Assembly (NCBI GenBank): GCA_016235555.1
Contig: JACRKC010000074.1
Coordinates: forward strand, 1-64,000
From: Verrucomicrobiota bacterium
Lineage (GTDB): Bacteria; Verrucomicrobiota; Verrucomicrobiia; Opitutales; Opitutaceae
Length of the DNA stretch: 64,000 nt
Direction of reading: 5' to 3'
Shown here: one piece after another, positions 3,385 to 38,849 of the stretch
How positions within the stretch are numbered: position 1 is the first letter of the stretch
Layout: every line of letters begins with the position of its first letter
Position numbers and translations under genes: made by a program
Notes under the pieces: generated by a model
The model's input: the letters and a program-made list of their open reading frames with translations, nothing else
What the model was told of the DNA's origin: nothing
Databases searched by the model: none

Positions 3385-6820
<3,436 letters not shown>

Positions 6821-6827
6821 GCGGAGG

Positions 6828-6846
6828 AAGTAGCGAGTAGCGAGCA
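6828..6846. repeat. Left arm of heptamer inverted repeat flanking S23-like gene
   Basis: The sequence AAGTAGCGAGTAGCGAGCA consists of tandem copies of the heptamer GTAGCGA, directly abutting the ATG of the four-helix-bundle gene. The complementary arm is at 7228-7262, after the stop. A second inverted pair of the same heptamers, without a gene inside, is at 38755-38849. Confidence 0.85.
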
Positions 6847-7211
6847 TGGCAAACAAATCACAGTCTTTCCGAGATGTCGTCGTGTGGCAGAAAGCGCATG
6901 CGTTTACGCTCGCGATTTATCGCCTCACCGAGGCGTTTCCGAAGCACGAGCTGTTTGCACTCACTGCTCAACTCCGCCGCGCCGCAGCGAGCGTCCCTTC
7001 GAACTTCGTCGAAAGATTCCGCAAGCGCACCAAGCCCGACAAACTCCGTTTCTACAACATCGCCCAAGGTTCCGCCGACGAGTGCCTCTACCAGCTCATC
7101 CTCGCTCACGACCTTCGCTACACCGACACCACCGCTCTTCAAACCGACCTCGAGGAAGTCTCGCGCCTCCTGCAAGGCTACATCAACGGCCTCGAACGCG
7201 ACGGCGCCTAG
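6846..7211 (+). CDS. Four-helix-bundle protein, 23S rRNA IVP/S23-like
   Basis: The product has 121 residues and belongs to the four-helix-bundle family first seen in 23S rRNA intervening sequences (TIGR02436), which also includes Avd-type accessory proteins of diversity-generating retroelements. Recognisable segments are FRDVVVWQKAHAFTLAIY, FPKHELFALTAQLRRAA and SVPSNFVE near residues 7-55, then a Tyr/Gln-rich C-terminal half. Family members often contain GxxR/K in this area; here SNFVERFRKRT replaces the more usual SNIAEG. Its function is unknown. It sits between gyrB and gyrA in the same direction, wrapped in inverted heptamer repeats that reach up to its ATG. No Shine-Dalgarno-like sequence is evident, and translation may be coupled to gyrB. 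The layout suggests a mobile insertion. Confidence 0.9.
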   Translation: MANKSQSFRDVVVWQKAHAFTLAIYRLTEAFPKHELFALTAQLRRAAASVPSNFVERFRKRTKPDKLRFYNIAQGSADECLYQLILAHDLRYTDTTALQTDLEEVSRLLQGYINGLERDGA

Positions 7212-7227
7212 TCCCACGCTTCGCGCC

Positions 7228-7262
7228 TGCTCGCTACCCGCTACTCACTACTCGCTACTTTT
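7228..7262. repeat. Right arm of heptamer inverted repeat flanking S23-like gene
   Basis: On the minus strand this reads as tandem heptamers GTAGCGA, GTAGTGA, GTAGCGG and GTAGCGA. It ends with the same GAGCA as the left arm at 6828-6846, and is longer by two heptamers. It reaches to within four bases of the GTG start of gyrA, so it occupies the place where a gyrA ribosome-binding site would be expected. Confidence 0.85.
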
Positions 7263-7265
7263 CCT

Positions 7266-9770
<2,505 letters not shown>

Positions 9771-38754: not shown

Positions 38755-38849
38755 AAAGTAGTGAGTAGCGAGTAGCGGGTAGCGAGTAGAAATTCCTCCG
38801 AGTTCCGCAGCGTGATGCTCGCTACTCGCTACCCACTACTCGCTACTTC
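38755..38849. repeat. Heptamer inverted repeat without cargo gene
   Basis: The left arm comprises tandem GTAGTGA, GTAGCGA, GTAGCGG and GTAGCGA heptamers from about 38757. The right arm is the inverse ending CTACTT, with 25 unrelated bases (AATTCCTCCGAGTTCCGCAG...) between. It matches the arms surrounding the S23-like gene at 6828-7262 but holds no gene. Confidence 0.85.

Follow-up and report, generated by a model that had tools for sequence, protein, structure and literature searches.

To our knowledge, the S23/IVP proteins have been labelled "hypothetical" for decades, the rRNA intervening sequences (IVSs) have no known route of spreading, and there is no accepted cause for the over-representation of heptamers in bacteria. 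A gene within inverted short repeats, dispersed gene-free hairpins and covariation of protein and repeat are together characteristic of REP/REPIN elements and RAYT. The IVS of the Coxiella 23S rRNA was described by Warrier et al. (2016) as containing an S23p ORF and a 28-bp terminal stem and as being excised by RNase III; tandem heptamers, GACAGAT, stand directly before the S23p ATG (PMC4990558). Intergenic heptamer repeats whose cause is not known have been reported by Rehm et al. (2015; PMC4692102) and MacGregor (2015; PMC4679880).

We analyzed a stretch of 64,000 nucleotides, hereafter the window, from an Opitutaceae genome of the Verrucomicrobiota. On its forward strand, the gyrB ORF occupies positions 3884 to 6820, with its stop codon at 6818-6820, and the ORF translation and relatives place the real start farther downstream. 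The next feature is a 5' arm of two heptamers, A(GTAGCGA)2G (6829-6844), which ends 1 bp ahead of the ATG of a 121-aa S23/IVP four-helix-bundle gene (6846-7211) recognized by the PF05635 and TIGR02436 profiles. An inverted 3' arm of four units, TCGCTAC, CCGCTAC, TCACTAC and TCGCTAC followed by a T (7231-7259), ends 6 bp upstream of the GTG start of gyrA at 7266 (7266-9770, from the ORF and relatives). The window contains 17 copies of GTAGCGA where 4.0 are expected, a count reached by 0 of 100 shuffles. The profiles, the arm coordinates and this count confirm the original prediction of an S23-like gene within inverted heptamer arrays between gyrB and gyrA. The arrays of GTAGCGA and its variants are likewise real, but the unit is better stated as GTAGYGR, and the arms are unequal, with two heptamers on the 5' side and four on the 3' side, compared with 4 + 4 in relatives such as genome G017. 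The full element, taken as a whole, folds no better than shuffled sequences (z -1.4).

The arrangement at gyrB-gyrA resembles the 23S IVSs of Coxiella, Leptospira and Xanthomonas in that an S23/IVP gene lies between terminal inverted repeats. As in Coxiella, heptamers precede the start of the gene, and the ORF has the same sense as its host transcript (PMC4990558). Unlike those IVSs, the unit sits not inside a 23S rRNA gene but between gyrB and gyrA, and is thus hosted by the transcript of a protein-coding operon instead of an rRNA. In addition, the IVP units found here have many heptamer types, and their gene-free derivatives are dispersed in intercistronic gaps. The arrangement is real and recurs widely, and within the reach of our search the link is a new one: in the open-access literature, no paper was found that ties heptamers to IVP genes generally. 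The best reading is a selfish unit of the IVS type located outside rRNA. We consider it probable that the gyrB-gyrA insert itself is a copy of such a unit, composed of an IVP gene and its cognate heptamers and accompanied by MITE-like derivatives.

The window IVP scored 115 bits against TIGR02436 (cut-off 24) and 111 bits against PF05635 (cut-off 33.8). Its AlphaFold model (pLDDT 94) has 2gsc as the top structure match (TM 0.86, rmsd 0.9) and also matches the S23 structure 2rld and, more distantly, Avd; the window IVP is thus predicted to adopt the S23 four-helix-bundle fold. We know of no transposase or nuclease domain in IVP. Within the GTAGCGA clade, the dN/dS ratio of IVP was 0.03-0.13, with synonymous change near saturation, and this strong purifying selection indicates that the protein has been maintained, whereas S23p of Coxiella appears to be decaying. 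At 7014-7016, the window IVP encodes an arginine in place of a glycine that is nearly invariant among its relatives (E56-G57 to E56-R57), a change that may impair this copy. The gyrB-gyrA copy of G028 and its close match L157 contain an in-frame stop (loci L157, L323), and this copy looks like one in decay.

The original prediction had also drawn an analogy with Avd and retroelements, and this adds nothing to the interpretation. The Avd proteins of DGRs share the fold of the IVP model (4dwl, TM 0.77; 8ube, TM 0.75), but their identity to the window IVP is only 11-12% and its score against the Avd equivalog, 26 bits, falls far under the cut-off of 80. RVT_1 (PF00078) was not found in the genome of the window (G000, a draft that is 98.6% complete), nor in G001, G003, G017 or G030, that is, in five of the seven genomes tested. 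For these five genomes, a reverse transcriptase partner of the IVP unit was rejected. Searches with models of defence systems gave no match.

A cargo-free copy of the arrays had been noted at 38755-38849. It exists, on the minus strand at 38758-38846, between genes that we call rny and queF from their translated flanks rather than from a database match. Its 5' arm, (GTAGYGR)4 followed by GCATC, spans 38815-38846, and its 3' arm (38758-38789) ends 12 bp ahead of the queF ATG (38745). With about four units per arm, this copy folds as RNA far better than shuffled sequences (z = -7.2). GTAGCGA arrays are present at about 17 gene-free places in this genome, which bears out the claim of one repeat family with cargo-bearing and cargo-free members. 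We collected 57 distinct short gene-free elements, 48 of which could be oriented by an internal GCAT motif. The order of heptamer variants along the arms was common to the 48 oriented elements (0/500 shuffles), so they are most simply explained as copies of one ancestor rather than as products of independent slippage. The IVP-bearing units of G017 and G030 have the same ordered 5' arm as the gene-free copies, and the sharing of ordered arms and of GAGCAT between these short copies and the IVP units is what is expected of MITEs. By eye, comparison of filled and empty sites revealed no clear target-site duplication at gyrB|gyrA or rny|queF. Comparison of the two arms, element by element, showed no covariation or compensatory change beyond chance, which weakens the case for strong selection on pairing; we make no claim of pairing selection from covariation.

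The association of arrays with IVP genes is not confined to the window. The genome (a draft of 8.03 Mb in 140 contigs) has five IVP genes, all of which are intergenic and lie within inverted arrays of about 7 bases, each with a different unit: approximately GTTGAGA, GTAGCGA, GGTTTAA, CTCTTTC and AACGTTT, the third and fourth being degenerate. In a scan of the window and a 400-kb sample of the genome, inverted pairs of period 7 numbered just one outside the window, which means that these structures are not part of the background. Among 34 IVP loci from this genome and its relatives, period-7 signals above the 99% null were found on the left at 17 and on the right at 22, while other periods exceeded it at 0-3 loci, except for the harmonic 14; at 20 of the 34, the two arms of the locus were each other's best inverted match. 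Beyond these, strong period-7 arrays flank 41 of 80 named IVP loci from about 15 phyla, compared with 5 of 450 control windows drawn from the same contigs. This agrees with the predicted association of heptamer arrays with TIGR02436-type genes, and since the 80 loci were picked by similarity to the window IVP, with a 7-sequence alignment as the contig query, the fraction is a biased estimate for the whole S23/IVP family. Period 8 ranked second to period 7 among them (10 loci), and a few IVP loci, such as L054 and L055, have 8-base instead of 7-base arrays. Period-7 arrays also occur at IVP loci on cyanobacterial plasmids and on an Azospirillum plasmid, and arrays are present at most of 20 extra IVP loci taken from close relatives, low-scoring members among them. 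The IVP genes of gut Bacteroidales (L173, L199-L223) mostly lack both flanking arrays and an rRNA context. At 20 other IVP loci, mostly array-poor, no match to rRNA or any other Rfam family was found, and an rRNA context for array-poor IVPs was rejected.

The similarity of heptamers follows the similarity of the proteins that they flank. At the 72 loci whose arrays are clear, heptamers were the more similar the closer the identity of the IVPs (Mantel r 0.60, 0/2000 permutations), and r was still 0.60 after removal of GC difference and shared phylum. At the 47 loci outside Opitutaceae, r was 0.63, and 0.53 when base-composition similarity was also removed (0/1000). In our reading of these sequences, no other evidence speaks as strongly as this coupling for joint travel or joint evolution of protein and heptamer, and the coupling ties together three subjects: the S23/IVP proteins, the rRNA IVSs and the excess of heptameric repeats. 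In addition, arrays were present in 8 of 8 genomes with the GTAGCGA-type IVP clade compared with 11 of 29 without it (Fisher p 0.003, a value that ignores kinship and is partly circular, as IVP arms were counted as arrays).

These results bear on two explanations in which IVP has no active part. According to the first, the heptamer arrays are simple repeats that grow by slippage in intergenic gaps and have no connection with IVP. Array length is indeed variable, and slippage has been proposed for the over-represented heptameric repeats of bacteria (PMC4692102). Nevertheless, this scenario leaves the strong enrichment at IVP genes over control windows, the protein-heptamer coupling, the unit order common to copies and the inverted pairing around the IVP gene without explanation, and we regard it as highly improbable. 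The second follows the model of REP/RAYT, whose flanked gene, dispersed gene-free hairpins and protein-repeat covariation have counterparts in the IVP units: a Y1 (REP-type) transposase would mobilize the gene-free hairpins, and the IVP gene would simply have been trapped in one of them. These genomes commonly encode Y1 transposases, with 10 matches in G000, and inverted short repeats look like REPIN substrates. However, the flanked gene is not a Y1 transposase but IVP, a four-helix bundle that lacks any Y1/HUH domain, and the repeats differ from those of REP/RAYT in being tandem heptamers with an intercistronic and directional location. Moreover, array number correlates only weakly with Y1 (Spearman 0.32, p 0.058), G017 has the IVP unit but no Y1 match, and trapping cannot account for heptamers that track IVP sequence across many phyla. 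A Y1 driver therefore seems improbable to us, though less so than slippage.

The insertion sites vary among relatives. GTAGCGA-armed IVPs 74-92% identical to the window IVP occupy three junctions: gyrB|gyrA (in several genera), gatA|gatB and pheS|pheT. The gatA|gatB junction holds an IVP at L155 (90% identical to the window IVP) and in G016 and G009, and the pheS|pheT junction holds one in G027 and a more distant one in G009. The empty site that the original prediction called for at gyrB-gyrA was found as a short gap in the close relatives G025, G015, G021 and G018. Other close relatives, including G003, G022, G023 and G031, have at this junction a hairpin that holds no gene and is built from an unrelated heptamer. 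On the gyrBA tree, the junction states are patchy and require 13 changes, at least 3 changes in the presence of IVP being forced by well-supported branches; the junction labels are rough, as hairpins with degenerate arms were missed automatically (G003, G031 and G009 were labelled other). At rny|queF, a GTAGCGA-type hairpin is present in G000, G004, G009 and G016, AGGAGTC in G030, GTGTTAA in G015 and an 8-bp gap in G025. Two observations had been named that would speak against mobility, namely gene and repeats fixed at one locus in all relatives, and arrays elsewhere with no association with the family; instead, we found empty junctions and a link between IVP and the arrays.

The gene-free elements are placed with regularity. 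In 42 of the 43 cases that could be called, the gene 3' of the element runs in the sense direction, and 45 of 48 elements have an ATG within 20 nt downstream (chance 0.23), with the start codon about 9 nt away. This placement raises a third explanation, a regulatory pair in which IVP would be an RNA-binding regulator and the hairpins before start codons would be the binding sites of an operon-spanning regulon. The fixed distance and orientation of the hairpins, the strong purifying selection on IVP and its presence at gyrB-gyrA in several genera would all fit such a role, and post-transcriptional regulation was proposed for the TAACTGA heptamers, with no link to IVP, by MacGregor (2015; PMC4679880). 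Against it, the sites vary between genera, one junction can hold unrelated heptamers, the genes seen show no evident functional theme, and there are genomes with many hairpins and zero IVP. We consider this explanation unlikely, although it is the strongest of the three. The complete genome G004 has 41 array matches and zero IVP, and the assemblies of G020, G024, G022, G010 and G002 contain arrays but yielded no IVP of the GTAGCGA type. A strict need for a cognate IVP was accordingly rejected, and the hairpins in these genomes indicate that cargo is unnecessary for the persistence of copies.

If the gyrB-gyrA insert is an IVS-type selfish unit, as we consider probable, it would have inserted between operon genes and would be co-transcribed with gyrB and gyrA. 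The two arms are predicted to pair in the RNA as a stem of 15-30 bp that RNase III could cleave, by comparison with the 23S rRNA IVS of Coxiella. Cleavage would take the insert out of the gyrB and gyrA messages, or the insert would merely separate them, and in this way it would be nearly silent. IVP, which by homology is of the pentameric nucleic-acid-binding type, may recognize the heptamer of its own unit, as RNA or as single-stranded DNA, and would promote the copying of heptamer-carrying units, including the gene-free MITE-like derivatives. More tentatively, and at somewhat less than even chances, we propose that such units form one class of mobile elements present throughout the bacteria, where a small four-helix-bundle protein, with neither transposase nor reverse transcriptase, recognizes a cognate tandem heptamer and causes the units bounded by it to spread between the genes of operons. 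Such a class would explain rRNA IVSs and much of the unexplained heptamer excess.

The heptamer repeats described earlier are similar to those studied here. The STRRs of Nostoc, GGGNATC of Xanthomonas and TAACTGA of Beggiatoaceae are also intergenic, lie near stop or start codons, are patchy among strains and sometimes form inverted pairs (PMC4692102, PMC4679880). Unlike the arrays of this study, they have no identified protein partner, and a link with IVP is suggested by analogy. In non-Opitutaceae genomes, most of the additional arrays sampled were single rather than paired. AGRAGNC gave 792 array matches in a Sphaerospermopsis genome and 549 in an acidobacterial genome (G057, G059; loci L172, L182), while the reversed-pattern control gave 0 and 4, respectively; at the sampled loci, these arrays were mostly unpaired. 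On cyanobacterial plasmids, IVP genes are located inside CRISPR operons, between cas10 and cmr3 and between cas6 and cas4 (L142, L147, L148). A 2023 survey lists IVP among CRISPR-associated proteins (PMC10910872); the CRISPR-linked IVP genes may be passengers in operon gaps instead of Cas accessories.
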